A stretch of DNA of 64,000 bases from positions 3,596,001 to 3,660,000 of the forward strand of contig NC_135244.1 of assembly GCF_947623445.1 (NCBI RefSeq), given 5' to 3'. The notes under the pieces were generated by a model that saw only the letters and a list, made by a program, of their open reading frames with translations, made no database searches and was not told where the DNA came from. Position 1 is the stretch's first letter, and each line of letters opens with the position of its first letter. Positions 35,105 through 64,000 of this stretch are shown piece by piece. Both the position numbers and the translations under genes were made by a program. Origin of the DNA: Clavelina lepadiformis (lineage: Eukaryota; Chordata; Ascidiacea; Aplousobranchia; Clavelinidae).

Positions 35105-36398
35105 CTACTGTTTCATGCGTTGAATCATTTTCAGACTGGCCTCACTCCTCTTAATACATCGACTTATCAGTTCCGGATTGTTCAGTTCGTTAATATCTTT
35201 GTAGGTTTTTATAGCGAGCTGGAAATACTGTTCGGCCTCCTCCATTCTTGACATGCAGGCATAGGTGTAAGCCAGGTTATTACGAAGCAAGCCTACAACC
35301 AGGTGTTGATTATATTCAGCACCGAAACATTTATGCATCGCAGAAAGAGCTTCCTTTAAAACCTTCTCTCGCCCTTCGTGGTCGCCAACGATCAAGTGGC
35401 AGTATTCTATGCTGTGAACACAACAGGTTGCACTTTTGCATCGATCTGCCTTCGATGCGCCATCTACCGAGAAAACCATTTCTTTCATCTCGTAAATCAT
35501 CGGAATCACTTGATCTCGGATAATAGACCCAAGACGTGAATCGGCTTTAAGTAAATTTATGACTAAACCTTGCATGCATTCAACACAGGACTCTATACCC
35601 ATGACCGCAATCACTGGGCTGGGCGAAGCTGAGTAGAAGAAAGCGGCTACGTAATAGAACGTCATCGAATTGAATAGAGCTTCAGGCTTTCTGCTGAGCT
35701 GCCAGGCAAATGCTTGAATTTCTTCAGGGGTTGTCGTGATGCTTGTTCTGATCAATTCAATCAGTTCTTGACGTGTTTTCGCAGCGTTTTGCGTTTGCTC
35801 TGTGAATAGAAGCATTTTGTGAAGTTCCACCAGTAGCTCACCTCTGTACGCTGGACCAAGAACATATTTTTCGAAAACAACTTGGTACGCTCGCTTGAAG
35901 TCGCCTTTCTTTTTGAAAGACTCGTACAAGTTGTAGGAGTCGTTGAATTCTGACAAAGATGTAATACTATTTCACTGTTTTGTTAAGGTAAATAAAAAAG
36001 GCTATGTCAAATTATTACTTTTGGAGGTAAAAGCTTCAGTAAGATTCACTTTTTGAAGTGGTGATGACATTTGTTTTAGGATGTCTTTATCGCCTGCATC
36101 ACATTAAATGAACTTCAATGTTTAGTAGTAGGCTATCTTATGAAGGATTCTAATTCACAAAGCAAGCTTAACATCAGCAAATATTACACTCTAAGTTGTC
36201 ATTAAGAAACTTACTTGGGCGAGTGAATGCTGTGGCGTTGGAGGCCGAACTTTCTCGACTGTGATGTTCGATATGTTCTACGTATTGAACAAAACATTGC
36301 ATCTTCATAAATTCAATTAGATTTAAAAGAAAGTAAAACTCATAGCATTCATGCAGTGCTCGGTTAAAGAGCTGAATCAGCTGCTTTCGTTCCAACAT
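35105..36398 (-). CDS. Helical-repeat (TPR-like) protein of unknown function, 3 exons
   Basis: Not recognised as a named family. Exons 36398-36215, 36093-36019 and 35949-35105 join in phase to 367 residues. An in-frame stop precedes the ATG at 36398. The protein is all-helical in appearance. Near the C terminus GLLRNNLAYTYACMSRMEEAEQYFQLAI resembles a tetratricopeptide unit (N-x-LA-x-x-Y…G/R-x-x-EAE-x-x-xxxA), and a preceding helix pair (HEGREKVLKEAL) fits an upstream unit. No signal peptide or membrane segment is seen. It is the nearest same-strand neighbour of the VioB-like gene, but nothing in the sequence links their functions. Confidence 0.65.
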
Positions 36399-38996: not shown

Positions 38997-41900
38997 TCAA
39001 CAAAATTCAATATCAGCCTGCTCATTGTGACTCACTTGCTCCCCTTCCTGCTGAAATGGGTCGAGAATGTAGGTCCAGGTCGGTGTAGCAGTGAATCCCG
39101 AAGAAGATGAGATTGGCATTTTGACTAGTCTCTTTCCTACGTTGAGCAGTTCGTACATCCTTGCTATGCACGTTGACATTCCCTTTGGATTACCGTTCAT
39201 TGTAGATTCTGAAGAGCAAAGGTATAAAATATATACATAATTTAATTAACCGAATAAACAAGATACAAAAACGAATTTTGCAACAAAGCTCACCCAAGCA
39301 TTGCAGCAAGTTGGTGTAAATCATGTTGAACTCGTATATTGTGCGCAGAGTCAGCTCATTAATTTTCTTGTCGTCAAGATACCCGTGAATATCAGTAGGA
39401 ACGGAAGCAATCGGCCAAACATCTGTGTCTTCATTAATGGAAAGCGATTCCCCAACGTAACAGAAAACTTTGTCTTCAGCTGAAATATCGACGCAATGCT
39501 CGTGTGTCAAACAAGGTACGCCTGCCCATCGTGGCGGTTGTTCGTCAATATTAAGAGCAACCAACTTTCTACCAAACGCGATCTCCTGGTACTTTATGAA
39601 ATGGGTTTTCTCATGGTCGGGAAAAGGATTTCCATCCAGGTCGGTTATGTAAGGTAAACAGGGGTAACCCCCCTCTCCCTGGTAGACCACGTCAAGCAGA
39701 GCTTCAATTGCCGACTTCAAATCATCTACAGAATTTCGTCTGAGTTGTAACTCGGGGTCACCAGTGAAAATGGTATTCATTGGAGATTCCGCTTTAACGC
39801 AAGATTCGACTTGAATCAAGCGAAGCAAAACTTTAGTATAAAACGCTCCAATGGTGTATGCGTCAGATACATCACGTTCCTGGAGCATTTCCGTTGCTTT
39901 ATCAAACAACTTTTTCCATAAATCGTCACCGGAGAAAGTAAAATCTGTTTTCTATGAAATAAAACATTTATTAAAAATCATCATACAACGACAGTTAAAA
40001 CATTTTCTGAGTTATTGAAATGAACAAGATCTTAAATAATTTACCAAGGCTGTATGCAAACCGAGCGACCGTGCCCACTTTGGTTGGCGTTCTGAAAGTA
40101 GCATAAAAATTTGTAACTTAGATCAACAAATTATAAGAAAAACGCAATCTGTCAGTTATCGGAAAATAACTATTACCTGAAGTATATCTTGTACTCCCAT
40201 GTAGTTGTTTCCAAAGATCAGCGATGAAATGAATGATTTTGTAAACATCCGGTGAATCCGGTTTTTCAATTTCACTGAAGACTTCTTTCGCCAATGAATT
40301 TGACATTTTTTTTAACTTCATTATAAGCCCTGGATTTATCTGAATAAATACAGAAAATCTCAATGATGGACGTTGGAAATCGATACAAAATTTTAACGTT
40401 TGCTGAATGTTATTACAGTAAATCCGCACTAATTGCAAACCGAATTGCCTTGCCCGTCTAATAATATGTGGATATTTCTAAAGATGTCCTTGCAAATCTA
40501 TTTTTGAAACGCTGCACCATTATTTGGCGTCGTTTGGTGCGCATTTGAATTACTTCCGATTTCTTAAGCTTGGCAATCATGTTATGCAGTCTACGATATA
40601 AATATGTTTCGTTCTATACTACATGTAAATTTAAGAGAACAATCATTGTTCTTGAATAACAACACCAATCTCTTGATCAACGTCATGAGTGACGGATTAC
40701 TGTTGTACTGGGATAGTTAGTGGTCTCGAAACAATTGCTGAACAGTTTATTCTAACGACAAGCTACTTGCACTTGGAGTTCAGCACAAGCGATATAAAGT
40801 GTATATCACGTACGTAAAGATTGCATTGAAATGATATATCTCTAACAAATGTTGAGCTTAATTTTTTCCCTTTTTTTTGAGTTGCTTGTGTTAAAATTTA
40901 ACTCACAGCAAATTCGTCAGTTGATGGAAAGGGGGTGGGGTAGTCTGGCAACCAATAGGAATCGGTGAGATTTGGATTTCCACCAATAGCGTTGAGAACA
41001 TTTGCATCGTAGGCAAGGTGATTCATTTCCTCAATAGCAATGCTGTGGAAGTATTTCTAATTTTATATTTGCGACAATAAATAATTTTCTTGTTTAAACA
41101 AAATTTTTACAAAAATGTGTTATCTACTGCACTTGCTTCACCGACAAACTTGAATTACCTTGTATTTCAATTGTTATTAGCAAACGTTTCGTGAGAATTA
41201 TTCAAATTATTTCATTGATAAGCCCACGTGTATTGAAATATATAAATGATAATAAAAGTGTGTATAATTTAAAGTTGAAATAGTTGAATAAATTGACAAA
41301 TCTATGAGAAATGTTAAAAAGAAGTCGATTACCTCAATAACATGTCAGAAACTTGCTTATTGGCATTCGGTCTCATGGACATATAAGCAGTGAGATATGG
41401 AGGTATTATATAGAGTTCTATCCACATGCCAAACTGCAACAGAGTCTGGAGTTCGCCAACAGATTTTTTCAAATTTTCAGGAGTGCCACAAACTTCAGCC
41501 ATTGTTTGTGATGGACTAAATGATGAATCAAATTAAAGGTTCACAGAAATTTAATCTACAAACTTTAGCAAAGTAGCAAAATTACCTGCTTTGCCGGCTT
41601 TCCTCGTCAGCTTTGTTTCTTCCACTGGCTTCACATTCAATCCACCTCCGGATCAATTCAGTTTTATCACCAGATAAGTCACGTGTCACTGGCATGAAGT
41701 TGGGATGTTCAAAGTCAAACTCAAACATGGACATGTTCATCAAATATAACTTTTGTCTGAAGTTAAATACGTTCTTGATGACTATTTTGCTTTTGCGGGT
41801 TAACGTTAACGTTAAGTATAACATTTGAATAATATTACAAAGACTGAAAACGTGGTAAGGCTGAAGAGTAATTAAATTATTTATGATTTATCAGCAATAA

Positions 41901-44900
41901 TATACAATATTGCAGGTAGCACCACAACCACCCTCGAACAAAATTTATTTAAATTATTAACAATCATGAGATAAATATGGATAAATACTCGTTTAATGAT
42001 TCATCATACTGTAGTGATTGTATCAATATAATTACCGAACTGAACGCAAATCTTTTAAGTCGATAATGTTGCGTTTAGCCATAACGGGACCAAAGCCAGC
42101 ATATTGATTAAAAATATCCCGGACGCCGTCGTCAAGCGAAGGACACTCTTTGCTCATGACTGACTCGTTCAGGGAACTAGAAAAAGTAAAGAAAATCATA
42201 TTCAGTCATGCATGATTGATCACAAAAAATTAGTTGATTCATTTATGACAACCAAAGAAGATGTGCTATAAGTAGCTAGAGAAGCATCTGTTTCTCTTAC
42301 TTGTCGTTTAAATCAGTTGCAGTCGCATTTAACCCTTCTTAAATTTATGTTTCTAACGCCAGGCAATCAACGTAAAGATGATTTGACAAATGTTGAATTC
42401 TACCAACATAATGATTCTAAGCTCAATTAACCAGAGAAGACGAATTAAAGACAATTGATAAATACTCTTTTGACACGGAAGTTCTAGATATATTTATGCA
42501 CAGGCTGTATCAAATGATAGATAATTAATCATTGATTGCAATTGTTCATTGTTTTTAATTTTATCATATTCCTTCTTATTAACTTTTACTTGATTTTGCA
42601 AGCTTAAAGTTGCTGCATTAGTTGAGTCAGCAATTTTAGGTTAAAGTTGGCTTGGAGACAACGCTTCAGTTTCATGGACAAAGTTGCGGAAATACTTAGT
42701 GTCTTTAACGCGTATCAGTTCAGCTTACCCGTAAACTTGAAGCGTGAGAGGAACGTTGAAATATGCCTGATATAAGTTGCATTGCTCTTTTGCATTATTT
42801 TGAGAATCTTGATCTCCCGTAGCAGTTTGGAACATTCCTCCGTCACCAACGCTTTTGACTCCGTTTCTTGTTGGAAATGACAATATTAAACCGAGTGGGA
42901 AAATCTAAATCAGAAATTGAGAAATACGATCAACGTATGTAATTACTAAATAACTGAAAAAAGGATTAATGTTGATAAATTTTGCCCCGTTGACACAATA
43001 TACGACGAGGTGACTCAGTGGCGTATTTTGAAGCAGAAACCAAAACTGTTCTTCGAATATTCGTGTTCATTTATCACCTGTCCGTCCAAGCCACATCCTC
43101 TTGGGAAACCAGGTTTTTTCGGAACACTTATGCTCAACTCAGCCAGACCATTTGCGTCTGTCTCTGCAGATTCACTCAACTGAACCATGTCGTGAGGAAA
43201 AGCGATTTTTGGCGAGCAGGGAATCTATGACACTACACTTGTTAATAGTCTTCAAATTGCGACTTTGTATGTTCTCGTTTCAAAGTGATGTATACCGGGC
43301 TTTGTTCGCATTTGTATAATCCATTGAAAATTTTTATAATTTTCAAGTCGACTTTACTGCCTTTTAACGGTCGACCGTACGTGCTAGCAACTGCTTCAAT
43401 CTTCCATTCTTCCTTGTAGTTTAGTCGATGTGTTATATCTTTCGTTGGCTGTGAAAGTGAATGAGATTGTTAAAATGTGAAGTAAAAGTTAATTAAAATT
43501 TTCAAATTTCTATTTTAAGAATAAATAAGATGATAAAAGTATGAAAGGATTTCGACAGTAATCAAAGACTCTGTACCTTTATGTTGACCCCTCTTGGATT
43601 TTCCAGCATAAAGATCTCACAAGAATCCGCTGAAGATGATTCACCACCACACGTGTCGGAAGAAGATCCTCCACAAGATGTGAAGCTGTTCGACCCGCTT
43701 CTCTGTGTTTCTCCGTTTGATGTCGCTGTACGTTGGACTATTCCCATTCGACTATTTGACAACAAGTAGAACACATCGTCTTCAGCCCAGTCGAGATCGA
43801 TCTCCACAATTCCTCCAAATATTGTGTACCTTGATAATATAAGATGCCGTATTACATACCATACTGTATGTGCAAGCTTATGGACAAGTATTGGGTTATG
43901 GAATATAATAAAATATTGAATTTAATAATATTCTAATATTTTTGAATTTTTAATGGGAATGGAGCATATTAACAGCTTTATCGTTGAGCATTTTATAACC
44001 ACAGTAGGCTACCATTGCCACTGGGACATTCTGGTAATTTACCATTAAACTTAAACAAAGTTTTTATATAATGGCAGTTGTTAATTAACTTTAATTGGGC
44101 AGATGTTTTAGACAAGAAAGTTTGTATGATAAATGACAAGTGGACCTGCAAGGCCTAATATACTAATACTCACTAGAATAATTGAAAACATAACACCACC
44201 AAATTTTACCATTCTTGAGTTGTTTGAGTTTTATTTAAACCGCCATCTAGCGTAAGTAAAATAAAATTCTTCCCTTCGCAATGTAGTTCTCTCTTATCAC
44301 AGTCGTGATCAATCAAGGAATGACATGATTGGTCACTGTTAGGCAATACCACAACGTCCAGAAGTTTATCGGTCACATTGAAATTGCCTTTGACGTCACA
44401 ATCCATCACTCCACTCATGTCCAAAACGAGTTTCTGCGACGTTAAAGTAAATTTTACGAACTAGACCTACCGTACTAGAATGCTTTTGAATTTACCAGAC
44501 TTACAGTTAGGTACAGAAGGATAACATATCGAAATGCAATAATTTACGGTTGCTAGATTTTCAAATAATTGTGCAAATATGTTTTAATTGGTTGGTTCCC
44601 AACCTAAGAGCCATGAGCCCCTTTTGTAGAATTTAAGGGGCTATAAACTGAGTGTAAGGGCACTAAAAATCTCACGTAATCTGCGTTTTTGATTGGAAGG
44701 CAAATATTTACATATTCTACGCCATGTTAGACCATGTAAACCACTATATCATTCTAGTAAATGTTAGACAATGTAAATTCAAAATTTTTGAGGAAAGCAT
44801 GCGTCCGGACCCCCTAAGATAGATTGCTAAATTTTCCTTGACTGCAATAGTTTACACACAACCAATCATTGATGGTGACGTTCCTATCTGCCCAGAAGTA

Positions 44901-47900
44901 TTGTGTGACTTGTTAATGATATCATATACATCCTTTTGAAGTTAGCTTGGTCACCCTAAATTAAATTTCAAATAGAGGACTACAGACAACCACGTTGTGT
45001 GGATTGGACAAAAGGGTCATAGATAGAAATCATACTTGAAAAGTGGTCGCGCTCAAAAAAGGTTTAGAAGCAGTGTTTTAAGTTAGAAAAAAAAAAGTTA
45101 TCCACAACTCACTTTATATTTTCTGCTAATGTAGAAAGGGACTGATCCATTATGGGGAAATTGACTTGGTTTCATCTCCCTTGCCCCGTAAACCATATTA
45201 GGATCATCTGGTGACGTCATTCCAATAGTACCCATTACCCGGCCTTCCATTATGCTTCCGTTGCTGTTGAAAATATACATTTCTTTGGTTTCCTGCTCAT
45301 TGATGTACGTGACTGTTGTGCTATTGCTTGTGTGTAAAACAACTTAGGGACTGTAACTTAAGCAAAACATTTTATTGGGTGCAACATAAAATTTTCTACA
45401 ACGTTATTGATTTTACGTGTGGAAGTCTGGGATACGCATATTGCACTCTCATAACCATACCAGTAGAGGGCGATAGTAAGCACGTTGTTTTTAATTAAAC
45501 TTACAATAAATCTAATTGAAAGCGAATGGAAAGTTCTTTTGAATTTTGAAACTTGTCTTTAAAAACGGGGTCTATCCACGTGATGTTGGTCAACTTTCCT
45601 TTGAAATTACCAACCAGAGACATGTCTCCAGCCATTCTGTATAATACAACATACCCTTTGTTTTAATATTGAATAAAACTAAGTCACTTCTAAATGATGA
45701 TAATCGCTGACGATAAAATCGATTAAGCATAAAGATATAAATTAATATCAATTTACGATGGGATTCTTGAGGTTATTGAGGTAATGAGTGTTCTTTTCAT
45801 TGATGCCGTAAAAACTCCAGGAATATGAACTTTAAATCCATAAATTTCTGACGCTATTTGCCAGTCTACATCTAAATCGACTAATCTCCCAGGATGAGGA
45901 TCTAAAAGGAATGCAATGAAAAGTTTTAAAGGTAAATTCAACAAATGAGTCTTTGACAATTAAAGGTGTATTATTTCAACTGCCTTCTTCAGCTTTGTCT
46001 TGATACACAGATACGTGTTAACTACAAAAACAAAACTCAAACTTCGAACTGCTCTTTGGACAATGGGATCGTCTGTAACACAATCGGAGCTTCCATTCCA
46101 ACATGCTGACGTCACTTTGGCTTGGTAAAAATAAAAGTGACTAGTACCCATTGCATTATACGATCTTCTGCCGAAAATAAAACGTGGCCGGTCGGTGCCC
46201 TGTAAAAGTGAGAAAAGTGTGAGATGAGTATTAGCGGTTTACCGTCTTCACCTTCCGACAATCCCTTACTTCTTGTGTGAATAAACCTGTTTCTGTTTTT
46301 GCCCGGTTGGTGTCGCACGTGGGACAAAAGCCATTGGGCTGATAGAAACATCGAACGTTGTTGGTGGTCGGTATGTCGGCTACGAACCTTCCACTGAAAT
46401 GGATGCGCGGCCAATCGAGATAAGCTTTTGAACGACAATGCAATGAAGAAAAGTTATTTCACGTTTAAACCAAAGCTAGCAAAGGACATATGGTTACTTG
46501 TAAATGATATTTGCAAAATCTAGTTCTATGTCAATTTAGTTAAAAGACGATTCAACTTAGGTATAATTCAGACCAAGTAGAAATTAACCCACTAGTTACA
46601 TAAAACCTACATATACATTGGGTATAGGACGTGGCATGATTATATTACTGTATACTATTGTAATAAGAATTCTCTCGTTCATGAAACCAGACTAAAATTT
46701 CACGTTTACGGCGAACCGCAAACACCCTTAACTGTGAGTAACTATATACTGTGTAGTGTCGTGACGTTAACAAAACAAACCGATCATCCTCATAAACATC
46801 CTCACGTTTAATCGTAGCCAGACACCGACTAACCCCAGTAAAAGACAAGAAAACGTTTATATTCATCAAAGGTGTCAAACACAATGATAAAAAGAATCAG
46901 AACAAACGCTTAAAAATGATGAATGATAAAAAGCTTCAAACAGACAACATACAGCATACAGCATACAGCAAAGAATGACGAGCTACGTGAGGAACAAAGC
47001 TTGTCACACTGTGTTAGTTTTCTCAAAGCCTCCGCTCATTCACACTTAGTTTGATTGTAGCAACTTTTTGCTTGTGGTTTTACAACCGAAATATAGGGAA
47101 AGCTTAATTCCATTATTTTCATAGATTTATGCGCAAACATATTTGACTTCACGGACAAAAACATTTAAAAGTGTTGTCACAATAATTTTACGTTGTTCAA
47201 CATTTTTTGTAAATGCAAATAAAAAATGGGGTTATAGGGTTTGGTCTTCCGTTGGTTGAATTATAATTAATGGGTAATTAACCGACCATCTGAAAACGAT
47301 TTACGAAATTACTTGTCAAGTTATTAATGATTAGAAAAACCAACCAATGCTAGGTATGTAATTTAGGTATCAGAAAATTTTGTAGGTAATTTTATTATAT
47401 ACAAGTATTTTAACAAAGTAAATTGTTTGTGATTTCAAAGGAGAGCGGTTTCAAAGCTTCAACGGTGGCATAGACACAATATTATTATGTAATACGTATT
47501 GCCACACATCATACTTACAGGGACATAACCGGTTAAAGCAATCTTTTTTATCATTGCAAGTCGATTCAGCGGAGTTGCAGTTTTGCCTGGCCCGTGTCCG
47601 AAAACCTCGTCCGCATGTGGCGCTGCATACGCTCCAAGCTGACCACTTTGACTGTTGTTGGTCATTGCCTGCATGGGGAAGAAATAATGGCAAAGAGTTT
47701 GCTTTTTATCATTTGGAACATGGGATTCCTCTAAAAGTATCGCAACAAATTGATTAAAAAGGAGCGCTTACTACAAAATAACTCTTATGTTATTATAGCA
47801 TTTGACACTTGTTCGTAACTCGGAGCGAAGCCGAATATGATTTCTCAATTTTTGAATAAAAATAACTCACCTGTGGTTGAAGAGTCCCCATTCACGTCGG

Positions 47901-48146
47901 CAACGAAAACAGCTGCAGTGTACAAAATATTTCAGATTATTTAATTCATTTGATTTTTCTACTTTGATAGACAGACACCAAGATATATAACTTTTAGCCA
48001 CAGCATTCCTGGAAAAGCTAACTTGAATCTTGAAAACTAAATGTGTGTTAAGTTATTCGCTTAATTGATGACGATACACAATATATAGAGCATTTAAACT
48101 TACTTGTTATCACGCATATCGCAGATATATACTTGAGTTTAAACAT
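38997..48146 (-). CDS. Secreted TSP1 + iminophenyl-pyruvate dimer synthase (VioB/RebD-like) protein, complete, 21 exons
   Basis: Exons: 48146-48104, 47912-47871, 47668-47519, 46424-46270, 46199-46043, 45901-45757, 45636-45505, 45320-45113, 44433-44210, 43829-43577, 43448-43296, 43224-43078, 42904-42729, 42176-42036, 41756-41586, 41515-41333, 41042-40907, 40339-40177, 40091-40045, 39951-39294, 39208-38997; 3696 bases, 1231 residues, all phases agree. Order: hydrophobic signal (MFKLKYISAICVITTVFVA); TSP1 repeat about residues 35-78 with six cysteines (WSAWSVCSATCGRG…DCFNRLCP); VioB/RebD N-terminal part (YLDWPRIHFSGRFVADIPT, GRLVDLDVDW, GRVMGTIGM, LENPRGVNIK); ferritin-like C-terminal part with likely metal ligands E in WIELYIIPPYL (~799), EEMNH (~831-835), VVYQGEGG (~1035) and EKTHF (~1056), then the family's YEFNMIYTNLLQCL…ARMYELL end. 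In bacteria this family couples two indole-pyruvate imines in violacein and indolocarbazole synthesis. Substrate and reaction here are unknown. Confidence 0.85.
44592..44830. mobile_element. Possible hAT-like remnant in an intron of the VioB-like gene
   Basis: GGTTCCCAACCTAAGAGCCATGAG is the kind of terminal sequence seen in hAT elements; the region continues with AGCCCC/CCCCCT-type motifs. A second terminus and a target duplication were not found. Confidence 0.3.
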
Positions 48147-49137: not shown

Positions 49138-50050
49138 CGGTTCTAGGTCGATTCAACCCACGGACGATCCAACCCACGGACGATTCAACCCAGGACGATT
49201 CAACCCACGGACGATTCAACCCACGGACGATTCAACTCAGGACGATTGAATTGAGCATTAGACCCAACATAATGAAGCCAGTATTCGATATCCAGTAATG
49301 CTCTATTGCTGTAATGCCTTTGTGTTCCTGTTCAGAAGACCTGATGCACCATAGTGGGAAGTGTGGTACTTGCATGATGCACAAGATCTATCATTGTGCA
49401 CTTTTAAAATTTATGGTACCTGAACAAAATACGGTACGATTGCAATGGTACCAGGTCCGAATTTAGACCATGAGAGGCCCTAGGCTATTTCATTTGTGAG
49501 GCCTATACCCAGGGTTGCCATCGGTCTCAACTAAAAAATAAGGACGATTAACACCTTAAACAGCGCAGAACAGGAGAAAGCAACCAATGTTCCTAAAAAA
49601 ACAAACAAAGACACTATCTAAGTTACATGTTCTTAATTTTGGTATCTCTTTGGTACAAACTGGTATACTAAAGGTGTCAAAATGCCCTCAGTAGGTATGG
49701 ATAGAAAATGGATTCTCTAAAGCAATTAAATCGGCATCAATCCCAAACTTCGAAATTGAATTTCGAGGCCACTGGACTTTGAGGCCCAAGGCTTCAGCCT
49801 GCCTATAGCCTATTGGTAAATCCAGCCTTGAATGGTACCATAACCGTTAACCACGACGTACAGGCCTATTCAGGATGGCCTAACTCTAGAATCTAGACTG
49901 TCCAATATTAAGCTTACAATTGGCTACAAAGTAACTTGGTGAACGTCCTGGATTGAATCGTCCGGGGGTTGAAACGTCCGCGGGTTGAAATGTCCGCGGG
50001 TTGTATCGTCCGCGGGTTGAATCGTCCGGGTTTGAATCATCCGACCACCA
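49138..50050. mobile_element. Foldback-like element with tandem-repeat inverted ends
   Basis: The left end (49148-49248) is a tandem array of about seven ACGGACGATTCAACCC units. The right end (49946-50044) is an array of about six reverse-complement units, GGGTTGAATCGTCCGC. The two arrays face each other across about 700 bases. The interior contains a truncated hAT-like copy and no transposase. Exact ends and target duplication are not resolved. Confidence 0.65.
49510..49697 (-). mobile_element. Truncated hAT-like copy nested in the foldback element
   Basis: CAGGGTTGCCATCGGTCT, AATAAGGACGA, CAATGTTCCTAAAAAAAC and GGTATACTAAAGG match the reverse complement of the right half of the element at 34228-34577. 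The other half is missing. Confidence 0.6.
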
Positions 50051-50334: not shown

Positions 50335-50495
50335 TACTTGCTGGGGACTGTAGTCTACATTGATCACGCTTCGGTGGTAATTCGGTACATCAGTGAAAAT
50401 AGTATTCTTCGGAGATTCCGCTTTAACGAAAGATTCGACTTGGATCAAGCGAAGCAAGACTTTAGCATAAAACGTTCCAAAAACGAAGGCTAAGC
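50335..50495 (-). pseudogene. Relic of the VioB-like gene's ferritin-domain exon
   Basis: The minus strand reads GTFYAKVLLRLIQVESFVKA then ESPKNTIFTDVP, matching GAFYTKVLLRLIQVESCVKA and ESPMNTIFTGDP of the large exon at 39951-39294. Similarity fades on both sides and the neighbouring exons are absent. A microsatellite abuts it. It is the trace of a further, mostly lost family member or of a local rearrangement. Confidence 0.75.
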
Positions 50496-51529: not shown

Positions 51530-52106
51530 AACTCTTGGTTTGTTATCAGCCCAGGAAATTTGCAACAGCGTTTAAAAAATCATAAAGTCAAAAAGAAACC
51601 CAAAAAAGAAAACGTCTTTATTGGTCAGTGCATTTTATTTTCAACGGATTTTAAGAGACATCTGTAGCTGTCGAAAGTTCTATTTGTTATAACCGCACTG
51701 AACACTGTTATCTAGTTATCTTGTTAATTCAACAACGCATTGTATAAGAAGTTTAATTCAACAAAGCAAATACTTTCAACACGCAAAGACGGTAACTTTT
51801 AAATCACCGGAAACGTTTATCACATTTTTCCCCAGACTGTTCCTGAATCTCCATCATAAATAGATATTCGTTACTAGCCAATTATTGCTTATTTCAAAAC
51901 TAATTCTCACTACGAAACACATAGGCCTAGTGATAGGACATATAGCAAGTGTGATAACAGTGTTTCTCTGCAATAGGAGCTTTACCTTTACCATAATCTG
52001 TCATGGCCAGCGAAGCAGACTACGACATTCTATAAGCACGTGGTTCCATAAGGATTGGTCTTGTTCCTCAAACTTTTTGCCATAATTTTTTCTCCATGCA
52101 GGCAAT

Positions 52107-52240
52107 GACGAAAAAGAGTCAAACTGGTCAACATGGAGCGTTTGCAGCGCCTCATGCGGACGAGGTTTTCGATTGGTGCGATTCCACCAATTCGATCTGC
52201 AAGGATAAGAAAGAATACTTTGACCAGTTGTGTCCATGTG
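52107..52240 (+). pseudogene. Relic TSP1 exon, unit 1
   Basis: After an acceptor-like ATGCAG it reads NDEKESNWSTWSVCSASCGRGF, close to the TSP1 exon of the gene at 38997-48146 (NDQQQSKWSAWSVCSATCGRGF). The frame then breaks: after GFR the sequence runs into an in-frame TAA, while a shifted frame would give KDKKEYFDQLCP-like sequence. No following VioB-like exons belong to it. Confidence 0.75.
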
Positions 52241-53277
52241 AGTAGCCTATATTGCGTATTATTATCCATATTTTGTGGGGTGCTGTACTATAAAAGTCAT
52301 CTATATATCCTTAAACCAACACTAACTCATAAACTTATCCAAACTGATGAGATAAGCTGCCACTCTTGTGTTGGGTTATTCTACAGCCAATCTATTATTA
52401 TTTACGTGCATTGGCCTTTTTCATATCCAGATCATGTTTAAAAGCTTCAGGTTAAAAAGACTAATTCCATTCTGTATAAAGCAAAACCAAACTTGCAAAA
52501 ACATTTTTGGATAGTTTCGATTTAGGGGAATTCCCATGGGCACTCTGGAAGAAATTAGTAGTAATTGGTGTAATTTGGTAAAATGGAATGACGTTAAAGC
52601 AATAACAAGCTTCCTAACTACCGCCAGAAAAAATAAGATTTTGTGATAGGCTTTTTAATGATACTAATACATTTTTATTAGATTTGGGGAAAAATTTTGT
52701 CGTAGTTTAACAACAATTAGTATTTTTTGTATATAGTTGTGTTACAGTTTTTTTGATTATCGTTAAGTTGTATTGGTTTCTGTAGTTTAGATAGTCAATA
52801 CTGTTTATGCAACGATTAGTACTTAATCTTATTGCATTGTTGGTTTGATAATTATTGCTATGGTAATTTTGTAATAAATGTGTTACTGTAGTATGAGTAA
52901 AGGCAAACTGTTAGGTGTGAAATATCCGGTCGTAGTTTGTAGAAATGAATATTAGTTTTGTGAATTTAGCTTGTAATAGATTAAAGGATCTATTTGCCCT
53001 CCAACTTTGTATTTTAATTTTTAACGTCGTCTGTCGCGGTGTTGATTGAACAGAATTAGAATTGGACAAATATTTCTTCCATGTTACAAAAACAACAAGA
53101 TCTGCAATTGGCTGCATTTTATGCCAGAAGTAGCGAAGAGTGCTATGGGTACAGTAATTATTTAACAAAGACCAATCAAGACCATGAAGGACAGGCGAAA
53201 GTTCTGGACACTTATGCACTGTGACACTTCCTTACATCAGTTGTGCAAGGATTGCTATAAAAGTCATTTGCTGTTTT

Positions 53278-54395
53278 ACCAGGTTCCATGACATTTGACC
53301 GCGGGAAATTGACCGCGAACAAACTCACCGGGGACAACTGAACGTGACGTAAATTGACCGCGAACAAACTGACCGTGATGTAAATTGACCGCGAACAAAC
53401 TAACCGGGAACAGACTTACCGGAATGAAAATTGACCGGGAGGTAAATTGACCGTGCAAGTGCTGAATTATTGTGTTTAAGTTGATGGTAGTATATGATAT
53501 GTAAAGTAAATATTTGTTTGTAACTATTTCCTTTGTTTTTAACAAAATTTTTTTTTTATTTCAATACACATTGAAACATTTATTGAAATAAACAGAAATA
53601 TTTCCGGAAATACGAGAAACACGAGCAACAACATTAAAAGAAGTTCACTGCAAAACACATATGACACTACATAATAAGGGCACTAAAATTTACACAAACT
53701 GTTATTTGACAAATAAGGAAGTTTATTGCGCAAATTGTAGGTTGTGGGCGATGCCTCTGGGAAAATCTAATATGTCACGGTTTGCAAAATCTTTAACGAT
53801 GGTTTGAAGTCGCACATCCAGATCCTTGTATTTTCTCCTTTTGGCAGGAGGCCCTTGGGCACAGAGCGCCTCAATCTTGTTTTTGTTTATGTTCTGCAAT
53901 TTCCTCAAAGCTTCTATAAATTTCCAAATGGTTGGGTGTTGCATTGATAACATCTTGTTTATTAGATTGTGGTGACCTTCAACTTTGTTGTTGGTTCTGG
54001 CCTCGCCATTTAACACCCGAACATGGACGTTCCAGAAGTCATGTGAATATGGCGGGTCTCGTCGGAGCTGAATAAAGGTGAAAAACCCGTAGGGTCACCC
54101 TACACCCTACAAGGGGCCAACAAACCCTACGAGTGGCAACCTTGACTGCAATACACATACTAAATTGGCTGGGATTAAAGCTGATGCGCGACTAGATAGT
54201 GAATTAGAATTTTGACCTTTTGACGGCCATTTTGTCGCCGGTTAATTTGATCGCCGGCCAATTTATCGACGGTTAATTTGATCGCCGGCCAATTTACGTC
54301 ACGGTTAATTTCATCGCCGGCCAATTTGTTGCCGGTCAGTTGACCACTACCAGTTGTCGCCGGTGAATTTGTTCACGGTCAATTCACGTGATCCC
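53278..54395. mobile_element. MULE-like DNA transposon remnant with tandem-repeat ends
   Basis: About 1.1 kb present in unit 1 and absent from unit 2, where GCTGTTTTTCCATCTGG is continuous at 60371; this defines the insertion site. The ends are inverted (GGTTCCATGACATTTGACC and the complement of GGTCAATTCACGTGATCCC) and consist of repeated TTGACCGCGAACAAACTGACC-type units on the left and GCCGGCCAATTT-type units on the right. It carries a degenerate transposase frame (53723-54016). A short TTTT-containing duplication flanks it, but the target duplication is not clear. Confidence 0.75.
53723..54016 (-). CDS. MULE-type transposase C-terminal fragment
   Basis: About 97 residues. ARTNNKVEGHHNLINKML and QHPTIWKFIEALRKLQ match the RTNN-x-x-EG-x-H … HP-x-(I/L)WK-(F/L)-I pattern at the end of MULE transposases found in many invertebrates. 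The upstream catalytic part is missing, so the element cannot move by itself. The frame opens on a non-ATG codon. Confidence 0.6.
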   Translation of the reverse strand: MLNGEARTNNKVEGHHNLINKMLSMQHPTIWKFIEALRKLQNINKNKIEALCAQGPPAKRRKYKDLDVRLQTIVKDFANRDILDFPRGIAHNLQFAQ

Positions 54396-54981
54396 GTTTT
54401 TCCATCTGGCAGCTACTATTTCTTGAGAGGTTGGGTTTTATTGTTGAAAAGAATTTTAGAGAATTTTGGTGAGGAACTCAGATGATTAGAGACCAGACTT
54501 TACGACATCATGATCGTGGTGGAATTGTGCCGTTATTCTGATCTTGTTTTATGAGGTGGTCCTTTGCTTTATGAGTTTACTTATAATAAAAGTCTCCCTT
54601 TTAACCGAGTACAATAAAAATGAATTGTTACCAGCGCAAGTAGTGTTACCAGTTATAAATCCAAGATATAAAGAGTTTTGAATCAACAGAAGATTGTCTT
54701 AAATTGTTTGCAAAAGTCGTTTTTAGCAAACACGCACAAGCCTCGTAGACAGAATCACTGCGTCGATAAGGGGCGGTTTTATTTTCAGTTTTATTTATTT
54801 GACGCTCTACTTGGCTTATTTAACTAAACTTCAGCAAACACAAATTGAAATGCGTCTTTACTATATAGCCATACCCGTATGCCGTATCCATTATAATGTG
54901 CTTATATAGCTGCAAAAAATATCAGCATAAAATATGGTATACGGAGCTTAGATAAAGCCAGAGTTCTATGGTACAATAGCC

Positions 54982-57900
54982 ATGACAATGTTTGTCAATA
55001 AAATGGAAATAGTGTTGTTATACCTCGGAAGCTTTCTGTTTATTGAAGGTACCTTAGCAGGTAATCAGCATAAGTTGATAACTAACATCTAGTTTCTAGA
55101 TATGCTCAACATATTTCTCAGTTACGTATTGTCAGGATAAGTTATAAGAACCTTAAAGTACAATGAATTTTCGGCAGATGATTGGTCTGAATGGTCGAGT
55201 TGGAGTGGTTGTAGCGTAACATGCGGTCCAGGTGTAAGGCATCGACAACGATTTTGCATCCAGGTCGATTCACTTCCACGAAACCGCAAAGATTCCTGTC
55301 GCGGTAGCAAGAATCAATACAAGGATTGTTACGAGCAGCTGTGTCCTTGTGAGTAAATCGAGTTACGACGTTGTTTAGCTGAAACTGCTGGCTTGTGCTT
55401 CAGTATCAAATTACCGACCGTTTATAATGCTCTGTGGTTGAGTATCAATTATTGTCATAAAATAAAGTTGAATCAGTAATAACTGGCATAAGCCATCTCT
55501 CCTATTTCAACCTTAGGCCTATTAGCATTTCAACATCACCGCCAGCTTTCCTGGACGCACTAACATTCGCAGAAACTGAAACTATGCACTTGATTTTTAT
55601 AAATAAAACTATAAATATTACATTTTATAAATAAAATGTAATAAAACTGCTTAATGAATGTTTCATGCCTACCCAGTCAAGATGCATAGTGCCAGGACGG
55701 GAATATAGCTATAGTTTTCACATACCACAGAAATAGAAACCCGTTGCTCCTTGAAGGCTTGCACACAAAGGAAGATTGTTATTTGCGATTTATGCGTACA
55801 GCTTACAGCATTAGCGATATTAGTAAATGCTCCGTGTGTTTTGTTAGTTATCATTTAGAAGCATTTCATTTTTACCGGGATCCTTTTCGATCTGTTTGCT
55901 ATTTACCAGCTTACCTCGACTGGCCCCGCGTTCATTTTAACGGAAAATTTGTCAGTGATTCACCGAGCGCCAACAATTATCGTTGCGCTTTCCAGCCCAG
56001 TGAGTATTGTCCCACGTGCGACACCAGTCGGAGAGAAACAGGAGCGATGGCCTCTTACGTTAAGGTGAAATAGCTACAAGGATGAGATGTTGATTCGTTG
56101 CTTAATGGCTGTATCAATTTCTCCGTAAATACAATTGCGTTGTTCTAATGTAGTCTATGCACTTCGTTGCGTAAAATGTAAGCAAACGTTGATTGGAATA
56201 ACTAAAATTTATGATTTTTTGGGACTTTCCAGGACGCCAACTCCTCTCAGATATTGGAAAACGCTTTGGGCAACGGTCATTTTTATTTTTACGAAACTGA
56301 AGTGACATCGGCGTGCTGGGATGGAGAATCTGATTGCGTCAGCACCGATGACCCCATTGTTGGAAAACAAGTGAAAAGTGCGATTTAAACAATAAATTTA
56401 TCTGTGAATGTGTTAAAAGATGGTTTTGAGTTAATTAGTTGTTTGGACTAATTAGGTGTTTATCAAAAACGCAACGCTTTAGACTGGTCTTTTAAATTCC
56501 TTTTTTATGTTTAGATCCGCATCACGCAAGAATGGTCGATTTAGATCCAGACTGGCAGCAAGCAACAGATATTATTGGACTCAAAATACACATACCGGGC
56601 TTACTCGTAGCGCCTATGACGAGAACAACTTTAAACTCTTTAATCAAAAGACAAAAAGAGTGAGCTTAAGACTTCTCTCTTTCTCTCTAACTTTTTATAT
56701 TTACAAAGTGATTTTAAAGGTTAACTACTTAGTGTCTTAGTCCTTAGCAAATGCGAGTTGTTATACGGAATAAAGTGTACTAATAACTTGTGTAGAGGAG
56801 AGCAAAACTCGTCGAAATGAGTTGTTGCGATTTTTCAATGAGCAAAAACAGTGTTGAATTGTATTATCAAATTAACGCCTAACCCCATAAACCCACAATA
56901 ACATGATGGAGTATTCACTTTTTGTCCTTTGTACATAAACATACATTAAACTGTCTTGTTATTTATATAAATTGCATTTTCAGAGGTGGTGATACGACTG
57001 CAGTTGTATATTACAAAGGGAAACTGACCAATATTAAATGGATTGATCCTGTGTATAAGGAGAAGTTCCGAAATGCTACTGAGCTATCCATGCGGTTTCA
57101 TCTGGACCAATTGTAAGTTAAAAGCTGCTGTAGCCTATATCAAAGTATAGACATGAAACAAGAAAACTATGTATTTTAGCCAGTTTGAAGAAATGAGCGG
57201 CCGGCTAACTGGTACCATCGGAATGACGTCACCAGATGACTGTGATATGTCTTACGGTGCAAGAGTGATGAAGTCATATGTTCACGGGGAAGTCCCTTTC
57301 TACGTCAGCAGGGAGCATAAAGTGACTTTACTGCTACAGCTTAACTAAATATAGAAAGGATAGTGATTAGGTTTAAAACAACTGCGTCTTTCTACGTCAG
57401 CGGTGATATTGAAATGTCTTGTATGTTTAGATATATCACACGCTTTTTCGTTAAATAGAAAATATCAAATCTTCACTTTACTACCGAATCTACTGGAAAA
57501 TATGGTAAAATATTGCAATTTGTTATTATTTCTCTAGAAACTTGTTTTTGATTTGGGTGGAGCTATTCCATGCAGCAGCTCAGGTAATTTCAGTGCATCC
57601 GATTTCAATCTGAAAGTTTTGGATGTTGTCGTATCGCCATCCAACGACGAATTTTGCAACTTCATTGACTGCAAAGATCGAACACTAACTTGTGATGGAA
57701 AAACGTACTTCATGCTTACGCAAGGTGGCGTTTTGGATACAGTTCACACGTCGCAAAACTGGTCAGATTTCGATAGAAGGACTTAAAAAGCAACAAAATT
57801 GCATAAAAAATAAATTTTTCGCAAAATTGCATCTTTCATTTTGTTCATAGGCTAAAAGCATTTATTGTTATATCAAGGTACTCAACGTACGGAGGAGTTC

Positions 57901-59176
57901 TTGAGATATCTATTGATTGGGCTACAGATGCTGTGTTCGACATGTTGTCAAAAAGTCAGATGGGGATAATCAATCAATCTTCAACATCAGATGCACAGTT
58001 CAGGAAAAGCAAAAAATCTACTTATTCTGCGTGTGGACTTTTTCCAGATCGATGTGATCACGGATCATCTTCGGAAGAACATTGCTGGATCTTCGTGATG
58101 GAGAATCCAAACGGAGTTAACATCAAGGTCTACTTTTCTTCTCTCAAATGTTTCTTATTCAATTATGTATAAATGATCTACGTGATTTAAGCGGATGTGG
58201 ACTGACACAGAAGCAGCCTTAACTATGAAGTATTTACAACTGTGCTTTCGTTTTTACTTTCGCAGCCGACACGTGAAATCACTCGGCGACTAAATCGTGG
58301 AGAAACTTGGATAATTCCAACACTTTCTAGTAGCTACGGCCGACCAATTAAAAATGCATCAGTGGAATTGCGAATACTAAAAACTTTAAACGATTTGGAA
58401 GAATGTAAACAGAACACGGTACGTAAAAGTCGAAAACGCAAAAATTCTACTTTTTTACGTTTTACGATGAGATTTGCATGCTCACTTGGTATAGGTTTCA
58501 TGTTCACCTGTTTTGGCTTCTCCGAAACATATTCTTAAACTGAATGATCTTATGCATACGGATGCACATGGGTTGGCAGAATTAAGCGTTAAAGTCGTAG
58601 GAAAACCCGGATTTCCACGGAGATGCGGTTTAGACGGACAGGTAAATTTTTAGAACAATTCTTCCCAAAGTTTTCTGGAAATTTTCAAAAAACGTGAGGA
58701 TGCGGTATCACTTCATACCGACTAAATTTTCTTTATCAACACGTTGGTGCTACCGTTTTCTGGTATTTCTCATTTAAAGGTCAGCGACATAACCTTGTCA
58801 CCATTTAACTTTCCAAGAAGTTTATTACGTTGCAACACAATTCCATTGTTATTAGGAATTTAAAGATCTCTTCAATTGATTTGTGTAGATTTATCCACTC
58901 GGAATTATTTTAACTTACTCTGCTGCTGATGGACGGATCGTTCGCGTCGGTGAAGGGGGAATGTTTGACGGGATTTCCGATCCATTCAATCTAAAACAAG
59001 TGAAAAAACAATGCAATCTACAACAGGCATACAACTCAGTTCAGATAACAGTGTTTCTCTGCAATAGAAGCTTTACCTTTACCATAATCTGTCATGGCCA
59101 GCGAAGCAGACTACGACATTCTATAAGCACGTGGTTCCATAAGGATTGGTCTTGTTCCTCAAACTTTTTGCCATAA
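54982..59176 (+). CDS. Secreted TSP1 + VioB N-terminal-half protein, ferritin domain missing, 12 exons
   Basis: Exons: 54982-55060, 55178-55348, 55910-56064, 56233-56377, 56515-56659, 56984-57112, 57180-57321, 57538-57761, 57878-58127, 58266-58418, 58495-58641, 58889-59176; 2028 bases, 675 residues. Signal peptide MEIVLLYLGSFLFIEGTLA, then TSP1 (DDWSEWSSWSGCSVTCGPGV, WxxWxxW and six cysteines), then the VioB/RebD-like N-terminal half (YLDWPRVHFNGKFVSD, ARMVDLDPDW, GRLTGTIGMTSPDD, MENPNGVNIK, YPLGIILTYS). Exon phases, and several lengths (155, 145, 224, 153, 147 bases), equal those of the gene at 38997-48146. At the tandem-duplication junction (59043) the family sequence stops after LQQAYNS and an unrelated tail of about 45 residues leads to a stop, so the catalytic half is absent. 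It could be a secreted non-enzymatic variant or a pseudogene. Confidence 0.78.
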
Positions 59177-59195
59177 TTTTTTCTCCATGCAGACA

Positions 59196-59345
59196 ATGAC
59201 GAAAAAGAGTCAAACTGGTCAACATGGAGCGTATGCAGCGCCTCATACGGACGAAGCTTTCGGACTCGGGCCGGCAAAACTGCAATTCCACCAAATCGAT
59301 CAGCAAGGATAAGAAAGAATATTTTGACCAGTTGAGTCCATGTGA
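59196..59345 (+). pseudogene. Relic TSP1 exon, unit 2
   Basis: Counterpart of 52107-52240: NDEKESNWSTWSVCSASYGR, then FRTRAGKTA. One conserved TSP1 cysteine is tyrosine here, and the reading frame is lost over the later cysteines. It keeps a GFRTRA-like stretch that unit 1 lacks, so the two relics have decayed differently since duplication. Confidence 0.72.
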
Positions 59346-60959: not shown

Positions 60960-63900
60960 ATGACAATGTTTGTCAATAAAATGGAAATAGTGTTGTTATA
61001 CCTCGGAAGCTTTCTGTTTATTGAAGGTACCTTAGCAGGTAATCAGCATAAGTTGATAACTAACATCTAGTTTCTAGATATGCTCAACATATTTCTCAGT
61101 TACGTATTGTCAGGATAAGTTATAAGAACCTTAAAGTACAATGAATTTTCGGCAGATGATTGGTCTGAATGGTCGAGTTGGAGTGGTTGTAGCGTAACAT
61201 GCGGTCCAGGTGTAAGGCATCGACAACGATTTTGCATCCAGGTCGATTCACTTCCACGAAACCGCAAAGATTCCTGTCGCGGTAGCAAGAATCAATACAA
61301 GGATTGTTACGAGCAGCTGTGTCCTTGTGAGTAAATCGAGTTACGACGTTGTTTAGCTGAAACTGCTGGCTTGTGCTTCAGTATCAAATTACCGACCGTT
61401 TATAATGCTCTGTGGTTGAGTATCAATTATTGTCATAAAATAAAGTTGAATCAGTAATAACTGGCATAAGCCATCTCTCCTATTTCAACCTTAGGCCTAT
61501 TAGCATTTCAACATCACCGCCAGCTTTCCTGGACGCACTAACATTCGCAGAAACTGAAACTATGCACTTGATTTTTATAAATAAAACTATAAATATTACA
61601 TTTTATAAATAAAATGTAATAAAACTGCTTAATGAATGTTTCATGCCTACCCAGTCAAGATGCATAGTGCCAGGACGGGAATATAGCTATAGTTTTCACA
61701 TACCACAGAAATAGAAACCCGTTGCTCCTTGAAGGCTTGCACACAAAGGAAGATTGTTATTTGCGATTTATGCGTACAGCTTACAGCATTAGCGATATTA
61801 GTAAATGCTCCGTGTGTTTTGTTAGTTATCATTTAGAAGCATTTCATTTTTACCGGGATCCTTTTCGATCTGTTTGCTATTTACCAGCTTACCTCGACTG
61901 GCCCCGCGTTCATTTTAACGGAAAATTTGTCAGTGATTCACCGAGCGCCAACAATTATCGTTGCGCTTTCCAGCCCAGTGAGTATTGTCCCACGTGCGAC
62001 ACCAGTCGGAGAGAAACAGGAGCGATGGCCTCTTACGTTAAGGTGAAATAGCTACAAGGATGAGATGTTGATTCGCTGCTTAATGGCTGTATCAATTTCT
62101 CCGTAAATACAATTGCGTTGTTCTAATGTAGTCTATGCACTTCGTTGCGTAAAATGTAAGCAAACGTTGATTGGAATAACTAAAATTTATGATTCTTTGG
62201 GACTTTCCAGGACGCCAACTCCTCTCAGATATTGGAAAACGCTTTGGGCAACGGCCATTTTTATTTTTACGAAACTGAAGTGACATCGGCGTGCTGGGAT
62301 GGAGAATCTGATTGCGTCAGCACCGATGACCCCATTGTTGGAAAACAAGTGAAAAGTGCGATTTAAACAATAAATTTATCTGTGAATGTGTTAAAAGATG
62401 GTTTTGAGTTAATTAGTTGTTTGGACTAATTAGGTGTTTATCAAAAACGCAACGCTTTAGACTGGTCTTTTAAATTCCTTTTTTATGTTTAGATCCTCAT
62501 CACGCAAGAATGGTCGATTTAGATCCAGACTGGCAGCAAGCAACAGATATTATTGGACTCAAAATACACATACCGGGCTTACTCGTAGCGCCTATGACGA
62601 GAACAACTTTAAACTCTTTAATCAAAAGACAAAAAGAGTGAGCTTAAGACTTCTCTCTTTCTCTCTAACTTTTTATATTTACAAAGTGATTTTAAAGGTT
62701 AACTACTTAGTGTCTTAGTCCTTAGCAAATGCGAGTTGTTATACGGAATAAAGTGTACTAATAACTTGTGTAGAGGAGAGCAAAACTCGTCGAAATGAGT
62801 TGTTGCGATTTTTCAATGAGCAAAAACTGTGTTGAATTGTATTATCAAATTAACGCCTAACCCCATAAACCCACAATAACATGATGGAGTATTCACTTTT
62901 TGTCCTTTGTACATAAACATACATTAAACTGTCTTGTTATTTATATAAATTGCATTTTCAGAGGTGGTGATACGTCTGCAGTCGTATATTACAAAGGGAA
63001 ACTGACCAACATTAAATGGATTGATCCTGTGTATAAGGACAAGTTCCGAAATGCTACTGAGCTATCCATGCGGTTTCATCTGGACCAATTGTAAGTTAAA
63101 AGCTGCTGTAGCCTATATCAAAGTATAGACATGAAACAAGAAAACTATGTATTTTAGCCAGTTTGAAGAAATGAGCGGCCGGCTAACTGGTACCATCGGA
63201 ATGACGTCACCAGATGACTGTGATATGTCTTACGGTGCAAGAGTGATGAAGTCATATGTTCACGGGGAAGTCCCTTTCTACGTCAGCAGGGAGCATAAAG
63301 TGACTTTACTGCTACAGCTTAACTAAATATAGAAAGGATAGTGATTAGGTTTAAAACAACTGCGTCTTTCTACGTCAGCGGTGACATTGAAATGTCTTGT
63401 ATGTTTAGATATATCACACGCTTTTTCATTAAATAGAAAATATCAAATCTTCACTTTACTACCGAATCTACTGGAAAATATGGTAAAATATTGCAATTTG
63501 TTATTATTTCTCTAGAAACTTGTTTTTGATTTGGGTGGAGCTATTCCATGCAGCAGCTCAGGTAATTTCAGTGCATCCGATTTCAATCTGAAAGTTTTGG
63601 ATGTTGTCGTATCGCCATCCAACGACGAATTTTGTAACTTCATTGACTGCAAAGATCGAACACTAACTTGTGATGGAAAAACGTACTTCATGCTTACGCA
63701 AGGTGGCGTTTTGGATACAGTTCACACGTCGCAAAACTGGTCAGATTTCGATAGAAGGACTTAAAAAGCAACAAAATTGCATAAAAAATAAATTTTTCGC
63801 AAAATTGCATCTTTCATTTTGTTCATAGGCTAAAAGCATTTATTGTTATATCAAGGTACTCAACGTATGGAGGAGTTCTTGAGATATCTATTGATTGGGC

Positions 63901-64000
63901 TACAGATGCTGTGTTCGACATGTTGTCAAAAAGTCAGATGGGGATAATCAATCAATCTTCAACATCAGATGCAAAGTTCAGGAAAAGCAAAAAATGGACT
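60960..64000 (+). CDS. Second copy of the TSP1 + VioB N-terminal-half gene, truncated by the window end
   Basis: Exons at a constant offset of 5,978 from the first copy: 60960-61038, 61156-61326, 61888-62042, 62211-62355, 62493-62637, 62962-63090, 63158-63299, 63516-63739 and 63856 to the window end. Signal peptide, TSP1 and all splice sites are preserved. Coding changes seen relative to copy one include GGDTT to GGDTS and YKEKF to YKDKF, all conservative, with no frame break. Whether this copy keeps the ferritin-like half cannot be told, because the window stops inside the ninth exon. Confidence 0.78.

Follow-up and report, generated by a model that had tools for sequence, protein, structure and literature searches.

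We analyzed a 64,000-nucleotide stretch of the genome of the ascidian Clavelina lepadiformis (contig NC_135244.1, positions 3,596,001 to 3,660,000 of the forward strand; hereafter the window). It contains a gene that joins a signal-peptide-like start and a single thrombospondin type-1 (TSP1) repeat to a complete two-part, bacterial-type protein of the VioB superfamily, related to pigment-making enzymes. Three further stop-free genes with the same architecture (copies B, C and D) lie on the same contig as this gene (copy A). The observation is real and unusual: in this small family of animal genes, all free of stops, domains are combined in a way that we did not find described. Judged from sequence, the proteins retain an intact ferritin-type two-metal ligand set, an enzymatic role for them is plausible, and profile scores place them in a sister family of VioB, RebD and StaD, outside that group itself.

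The gene was located by comparing the window with related places on the same contig, using a search of the genome (209 Mb in 95 contigs) with the PF12902 profile; the search gave eight matches, all on contig C5. The hand-curated model runs from 48146 to 38997 on the minus strand and encodes 1212 residues in 21 exons with no internal stop; all 20 introns have GT-AG borders and their phases are consistent (Table 1). An initial annotation of the window had proposed 21 phase-consistent exons between the same coordinates, and this structure stands. The protein of 1231 residues that it gave had the whole architecture but a different length, because a few exon ends must differ. Two features, the donor of exon 5 (GTTTGA) and the short exon 19, have weaker support and were chosen by position and similarity in the paralogues. 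The protein begins with a hydrophobic N-terminus, which by direct reading resembles a signal peptide. As annotated, a TSP1 repeat follows; PF00090 matches it at residues 35–71 with 24.9 bits, above the cut-off of 21.6. The repeat holds WSAWSVCSATCG (read directly), a sequence that bears on sugar modification. The next 1134 residues, annotated as about 1140, are collinear over both halves with bacterial VioB-type proteins. A Pfam scan of the full protein matched the ferritin-like family PF12902 at residues 773–1047 (E 2.9e-36; 125.8 bits against a curated cut-off of 22.3; profile positions 1–219 of 221 covered) and gave no match at E 1 between the TSP1 repeat and this domain. The motifs named in the initial annotation were all recovered (WIELYIIPPYL at residue 778, EEMNHL at 812, QGEGG at 1014 and EKTH at 1037), and the protein contains 34 cysteines and 9 N-glycosylation sequons.

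Models at the three other loci were likewise stop-free, with 1218, 1262 and 1232 residues; the first exon of copy D is a candidate, picked for its hydrophobic start and phase-1 donor. Exon sizes of 155, 224, 153, 147, 176, 141 and 136 bases are common to all four models, and the four proteins are 55–78% identical to one another. Substitution rates were calculated by the Nei-Gojobori method on earlier paralogue models, in which B and C each carried one artefact stop. Whole-protein dN/dS between copies was 0.18–0.25, and that of the ferritin-like half was 0.18–0.29. The pairs A-B, A-C, A-D, B-D and C-D had dN of 0.25–0.32 and dS of 1.3–1.45, dS being near saturation for the older pairs; B-C had dN of 0.12 and dS of 0.51. 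These data indicate that the codons of the gene family are under purifying selection. Because three paralogue models are free of stops, exon sizes recur in all four genes and whole-protein dN/dS is in this range, the structure of the window gene is far beyond chance.

A potential concern with the gene model is whether two adjacent genes, one for TSP1 and one VioB-like, had been wrongly joined, or whether the locus is a decaying pseudogene. We consider this very improbable. In copy A, exons 3 and 4 are separated by an intron of 1.1 kb, which would suit a wrong join, but in all four models the TSP1 exon (150, 171, 177 and 171 bases) is phase 1 at both ends and stands directly before the SYLDW exon, in frame and without stops. 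In copy A, moreover, reading upstream in the frame of the SYLDW exon reaches a stop before any Met. On the strength of purifying selection and of four stop-free models sharing one junction, we rejected both a pseudogene and split genes.

Relatives of the VioB-type part were sought in bacteria. A search of plasmid proteins matched 164 records; in three of them the match spanned 80% or more of the query. Adjacent genes labelled 'hypothetical protein' and 'ferritin-like protein' in Aureibacter, Gloeothece, Azospirillum and Mycetohabitans together cover the whole VioB-type part; the window protein matched these four pairs at E 1e-19 to 7e-28 in the N-half and 7e-21 to 6e-45 in the C-half, and identity between the animal copies and the pairs was 25–29%. 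Many other plasmid matches were to the ferritin-like half alone, for example beside GMC oxidoreductase genes. A scan of species genomes with an N-half alignment yielded 158 candidate stretches, of which 119 were confirmed; the best 80 were kept and, with the four plasmid loci, make up the 84 bacterial loci considered below. Two genes encode the halves at 65 of these loci and one fused frame at 8, while 11 have the N-half alone, some of them cut by contig ends. The bacterial pairs, such as Aureibacter tunicatorum WP_309940633/WP_309940635, resemble the animal proteins in the collinearity of both halves and in their metal ligands, and they give the best profile match. They differ in being mostly two genes and in lacking TSP1, and we found for them no family name and, in the literature, no tested function. 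All four plasmid pairs start M-SYL or M-SFL with no TSP1 ahead; because these relatives begin there, the junction between TSP1 and the VioB-type part would lie at a former start codon.

The beta-rich bacterial N-half, of about 560–700 residues (e.g. L014:5998-7761), is paired or fused with PF12902 at 73 of the 84 loci. The one example tested matched no Pfam family at E 0.01, and on this comparison the N-half is an undescribed domain. Five loci (L026, L027, L036, L037 and L060) each hold two pairs of N-half and ferritin-like genes in tandem, suggesting hetero-complexes or duplicated pathways.

We examined the metal site in an alignment of the animal proteins with 73 bacterial rows, both halves being long enough at 71 of the 84 loci. 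Residues E780, E813, H816, E878, E1016 and H1040 were present in all four animal proteins, in 72 or 73 of the 73 bacterial rows and in 9/9 rows of VioB/RebD type. Five of them (E780, E813, H816, E1016 and H1040) complete the PF12902 ligand set of E, ExxH, E and H in every animal copy, so the ferritin-like domain keeps its ligands, as had been claimed for copy A. At least 93% of the bacterial rows agree in 118 columns; 79 of these columns were identical in all four animals and 90 in the window copy. A C-half profile built from 2 animal and 24 bacterial sequences matched three solved structures at E ≤1, namely the ferritin-like protein 3hl1 (1.2e-24) and the bacterioferritins 9viw (1.3e-7) and 1nf4 (8.2e-6). 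In the last of these, E23, E56 and H59 (our own numbering count) occupy the positions of the first three ligands; we take these residues to be iron ligands.

AlphaFold2 modelled the fused bacterial relative L022 (892 residues, 50 sequences) at a mean pLDDT of 90.5, and the best Foldseek match of the model was 3hl1 (E 4.3e-9, TM 0.70 of target), which has the fold of the C-half. This protein, CC_0557, differs from the animal proteins in its length of 289–317 residues, its lack of an N-half and its bacterial origin. The N-half was modelled from a split bacterial protein at a mean pLDDT of 86.2 and gave 35 Foldseek matches at E ≤0.001, an intimin domain (TM 0.36–0.39 of target) being among them. 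The 23 top rows (complement C3/C5, integrins, CD109, sialidase and alpha-2-macroglobulin) were rejected, with TM ≤0.15 and rmsd >20 Å.

The initial annotation had called the protein a full VioB/RebD-like synthase. The two-part architecture, the superfamily and the ligands of that description stand; the subfamily does not. VioB has been described as a haem b protein with catalase activity that dimerizes indole-pyruvate imine (PMC9705886), and RebD-type enzymes as haem-containing chromopyrrolic acid synthases (PMC10851217). VioB, RebD and StaD, as iminophenyl-pyruvate dimer and chromopyrrolic acid synthases, share with the animal proteins a two-part single chain, PF12902 and the same metal ligands, but mean identity to them was 19–20%. 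Against the NCBIfam VioB model TIGR04492 (cut-off 1250 bits), the window protein scored 18.3 bits, Pseudoduganella violacea VioB, run as a control, 1855.9 bits, and five RebD/StaD-like proteins 586–788 bits. On home-made profiles of nine rows each, the four animal proteins scored 399–442 bits with the split sister family (399 for the window copy), 371–408 bits with the fused bacterial group and 17–36 bits with the VioB/RebD type. Membership in VioB/RebD/StaD was rejected on these scores. When solved structures were searched by sequence, with the window protein as query, neither VioB nor RebD was among the matches.

Some of the reference rows need qualification. The VioB gene of P. violacea lies beside three genes, named VioA, VioC and VioD from the operon order, and the same neighbours recur at its counterpart in Chromobacterium subtsugae. 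The family of Kibdelosporangium (33 of 150 genomes with a PF12902 match) supplied seven RebD/StaD-like rows; these are putative RebD or StaD proteins, and their loci have weak VioC-like and no VioA-like matches. L150 and L151, two of eleven actinobacterial loci retrieved, did not enter the VioB/RebD-type set.

The animal proteins could still act as true enzymes of the VioB/RebD/StaD type; an amino-acid oxidase would then supply the indole-pyruvate imine, or a tyrosine/DOPA analogue, that they dimerize. The shared architecture and ligands favour this, as does the partner logic of VioA-VioB and RebO-RebD (PMC9705886, PMC10851217), but the profile scores oppose it, and homologues of VioA, VioC or VioD (E 1e-15) were found at none of the 84 loci, within flanks of up to about 6 kb a side. 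We regard it as improbable.

With five Aureibacter ebo proteins as queries (E 1e-8), at least two ebo homologues were detected at 22 of the 66 loci with at least 11 kb of sequence, and at least three at 17, the Aureibacter query locus included. Homologues of LodA-type oxidases were present at 4 of the 84 loci and FAD-oxidoreductase or halogenase-like genes at 5, Pfam having been run on three of these neighbour proteins. The ebo cluster reportedly moves scytonemin precursors to the periplasm (PMC6282210), and PF12902 proteins near lodA/lodB-like genes have been reported from a fungus (PMC4417212). The bacterial neighbours thus suggest small-molecule oxidation and export, which is no proof for the animal protein.

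We examined the origin of the family by phylogenetic analysis. A first tree, of 49 of the 86 aligned rows after thinning at 62% identity, united the four animal copies (SH-aLRT 100; stem 1.82 changes per site). In this tree the long branch of the animals meets that of the VioB/RebD group, and sequence composition is uneven across many rows. A second tree of 34 rows, with the VioB/RebD group left out, again gave one animal clade (100/100; stem 2.09), joining between the bacterial fused (88/69) and split (86/79) groups. The animals lay outside the bacterial sub-clades in both trees, and among the bacterial and four animal rows neither tree indicated a donor lineage. The initial annotation had put forward an ancient acquisition from bacteria; we regard this as no more than possible, because the four animal copies make up a single, very long-stemmed clade that stands apart from the bacterial sub-clades. 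Aureibacter tunicatorum, whose name hints at a tunicate source although its record gives only Iriomote, Okinawa, was considered as a donor, being the top plasmid row, and was rejected on its grouping with other Bacteroidota far from the animals. An intron at the junction of the two halves was also discarded as a relic of two bacterial genes, a chance position there being not unlikely with 20 introns in 1212 codons.

An alternative that concerns origin, not function, is that no transfer into tunicates took place and that the gene is an old eukaryotic one, which most animals have lost and to which TSP1 was added in this lineage. We lean against this but give it considerable weight. The position of the animal clade, its stem of 1.8–2.1 changes per site and the want of a donor would all fit, as would PF12902 proteins reported in a fungus (PMC4417212) and PF12902 domains reported in extracellular vesicles of Schistosoma haematobium (PMC7563238), the latter perhaps ordinary ferritins. 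Because of the schistosome report, the claim that other animals lack PF12902 cannot be made. Against the alternative, the family is widespread and diverse in bacteria, as the 119 stretches confirmed in one scan attest. The TSP1 exon would have been added by phase-1 exon shuffling ahead of the former bacterial start, and this addition may have turned a bacterial-type enzyme into an exported protein.

The surroundings of the four genes record recent local duplication, shown by a truncated copy of B and scattered exon relics. Positions 54396–59042 and 60374–65020 (the latter running past the window end at 64000) are 99.2% identical over 4647 bases, a tandem duplication that leaves a truncated fifth copy, and 51953–53281 is 96.7% identical to 59044–60382; the tandem duplication may be a true one or may reflect a retained haplotype in the assembly. 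TSP1-exon-like relics (88% and 82%) and an exon-20-like relic (90%) lie outside the gene models at 52069–52171, 59160–59349 and 50384–50480. With the N-half of copy C as query, 66 matches were found in the genome, of which 58 lie on C5 and 8 on C4 and C6. N-half-like exons at C4:11134323-11135764 are 39–66% identical to copy C, on a contig with no PF12902 match, and the single matches at C4:9025171, C4:19115734 and C6:12956469 contain stops; the C4 and C6 matches are probably partial or dead copies.

Table 1. Exons of copy A and positions of the related genes (window coordinates unless marked as contig positions).
Feature	Position	Strand	Description
Exon 1	48104..48146	-	Start codon, signal-peptide-like start (MFKLKYISAICVIT..), ends in phase 1; donor GTAAGT
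Exon 2	47871..47912	-	Signal peptide end/short linker, phase 1-1; no counterpart in paralogue models
Exon 3	47519..47668	-	TSP1 repeat, symmetrical phase 1-1; PF00090 over cut-off; counterpart in B, C and D
Exon 4	46270..46424	-	Start of VioB-type N-half (SYLDWPRIHFSGRF..); aligned with start Met of four bacterial relatives
Exon 5	46043..46199	-	N-half; weak donor GTTTGA, placed by paralogues
Exon 6	45757..45901	-	N-half
Exon 7	45505..45636	-	N-half
Exon 8	45113..45263	-	N-half
Exon 9	44210..44433	-	N-half; 224 bases in 4/4 models
Exon 10	43577..43829	-	N-half
Exon 11	43296..43448	-	N-half; 153 bases in 4/4 models
Exon 12	43078..43224	-	N-half; 147 bases in 4/4 models
Exon 13	42729..42904	-	N-half; 176 bases in 4/4 models
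Exon 14	42036..42176	-	N-half; 141 bases in 4/4 models
Exon 15	41586..41756	-	End of N-half (..HPNFMPVTRDLS..)
Exon 16	41333..41515	-	Start of ferritin-like half; ligand E780
Exon 17	40907..41042	-	Ligands E813 and H816 (EEMNH); PF12902 9e-13
Exon 18	40177..40339	-	Conserved E878 (SEIEKP)
Exon 19	40045..40091	-	Short linker; placed by paralogue similarity, weaker
Exon 20	39294..39951	-	Ligands E1016 (QGEG) and H1040 (EKTH); about 14 residues of B, C and D missing
Exon 21	38997..39208	-	C-terminus and stop
Tandem copy of paralogue B 5' half	54396..59042	+	TSP1 and N-half exons, no PF12902 match; recent
Paralogue B 5' part in window	60981..64000	+	Runs past window to contig position 3664020; same architecture
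Paralogue B	contig 3656981-3664020	+	19 exons, 18/18 introns GT-AG
Paralogue C	contig 3674199-3665919	-	20 exons, 19/19 introns GT-AG
Paralogue D	contig 4373724-4365750	-	19 exons, 18/18 introns GT-AG

Elsewhere in the window, an open frame at 9834–11156 encodes a Brix-domain protein (E 1e-44), one at 35108–35971 a TPR-like protein with below-cut-off matches, and one at 25630–26859 (409 residues), perhaps a retroelement ORF1, has weak matches to zinc-finger and ZCCHC3-like models, all below cut-off. Between genes, at 49149–49247, 49942–50036, 53295–53453 and 54224–54338, lie short tandem arrays whose periods are about 15–16 and 31 bases. An Rfam scan of the window gave no match. Tunicates are said to be the sole animals carrying a bacterial-type cellulose synthase gene (PMC6523144). 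The genome search found one 106-bit match to the bacterial CelA model, below its cut-off of 699 bits; the model also matches 11 of 14 bacterial and archaeal controls, one of them over the cut-off. GH6 had no match in this genome or in any control, and COX1 was not found in the genome search.

We tentatively propose, as a reading a little short of an even chance, that the animal protein is an oxidase that depends on metal, is secreted and is tethered to the matrix. It would work outside cells, with a metal centre of diiron type and possibly also bound haem. The centre in the C-half would act with the N-half as its partner, the role given to the N-half being a guess, and the substrate would be a small reactive aromatic or amine metabolite, or a peroxide made with such a metabolite. 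The TSP1 repeat would tie the protein to the matrix or cell surface, as proposed for Tuphoxin, and the site of action may be the tunic or haemolymph. Tuphoxin is a tunicate protein with TSP1 and tyrosinase domains that is made in blood cells and secreted from them to the tunic (PMC9395347). It likewise combines TSP1 with a metal oxidase domain, but that domain is an unrelated copper enzyme, and the work on it used antibodies and mass spectrometry where ours used the genome alone. TSP1-astacin proteases occur in ascidian sperm (PMC6353882, PMC11673157). The C. lepadiformis genome itself has nine tyrosinase (PF00264) exon matches, on contigs C1, C5 and C7. We found no VioB-like protein of tunicates, no TSP1-ferritin-like fusion and no animal oxidative chemistry of the proposed kind in the literature searched, which leaves out most subscription journals and so does not show absence from print.

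Several observations weigh against this proposal. N815 of EEMNH, next to the ligand H816, occurs in the window copy alone; L stands at this position in the other three and in 93% of the 73 bacterial rows. The window copy alone lacks about 14 residues directly before the QGEG helix, where the bacterial stretch is also shorter. Given this loss and the N for L, the activity of the window copy may differ. The N-half model has no convincing match to a solved fold by Foldseek. In the TSP1 part, which rests on 33–50 codons with dS saturated in five pairs, the B-C comparison (50 codons) gave dN of 0.166, nearly equal to dS of 0.19, and no constraint is visible. Finally, 44 of the 66 bacterial loci have fewer than two ebo homologues, so the evidence from neighbours comes from a minority of loci.

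The protein might instead serve in matrix or adhesion or as a metal store, the enzyme half being kept for its shape or for iron binding and not for catalysis. The TSP1 repeat, the signal-peptide-like start, the cysteines and the sequons fit an extracellular structural protein, as does the deletion near the metal site of the window copy. Retention of all the ligands in four copies of such diverged sequence, and the low dN/dS of the ferritin-like half, speak against it, and we regard it as unlikely. We are equally doubtful of the wider form of the oxidase proposal, in which a bacterial natural-product module, acquired by an ancestor of this animal, was converted by exon shuffling into a family of matrix-tethered extracellular diiron or haem oxidases coupling or oxidizing aromatic metabolites in tunic or blood.

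Should the oxidase be active, C. lepadiformis would be an animal that deploys, outside its cells, an entire bacterial-type enzyme of the VioB superfamily with both of its parts. The four genes would then give experimenters access to a eukaryotic representative of a bacterial family that is widespread. If the proposal is true, they would join Tuphoxin as a second example of TSP1 tethering an oxidative enzyme to matrix, with a bearing on tunic hardening, defence and host-microbe chemistry.

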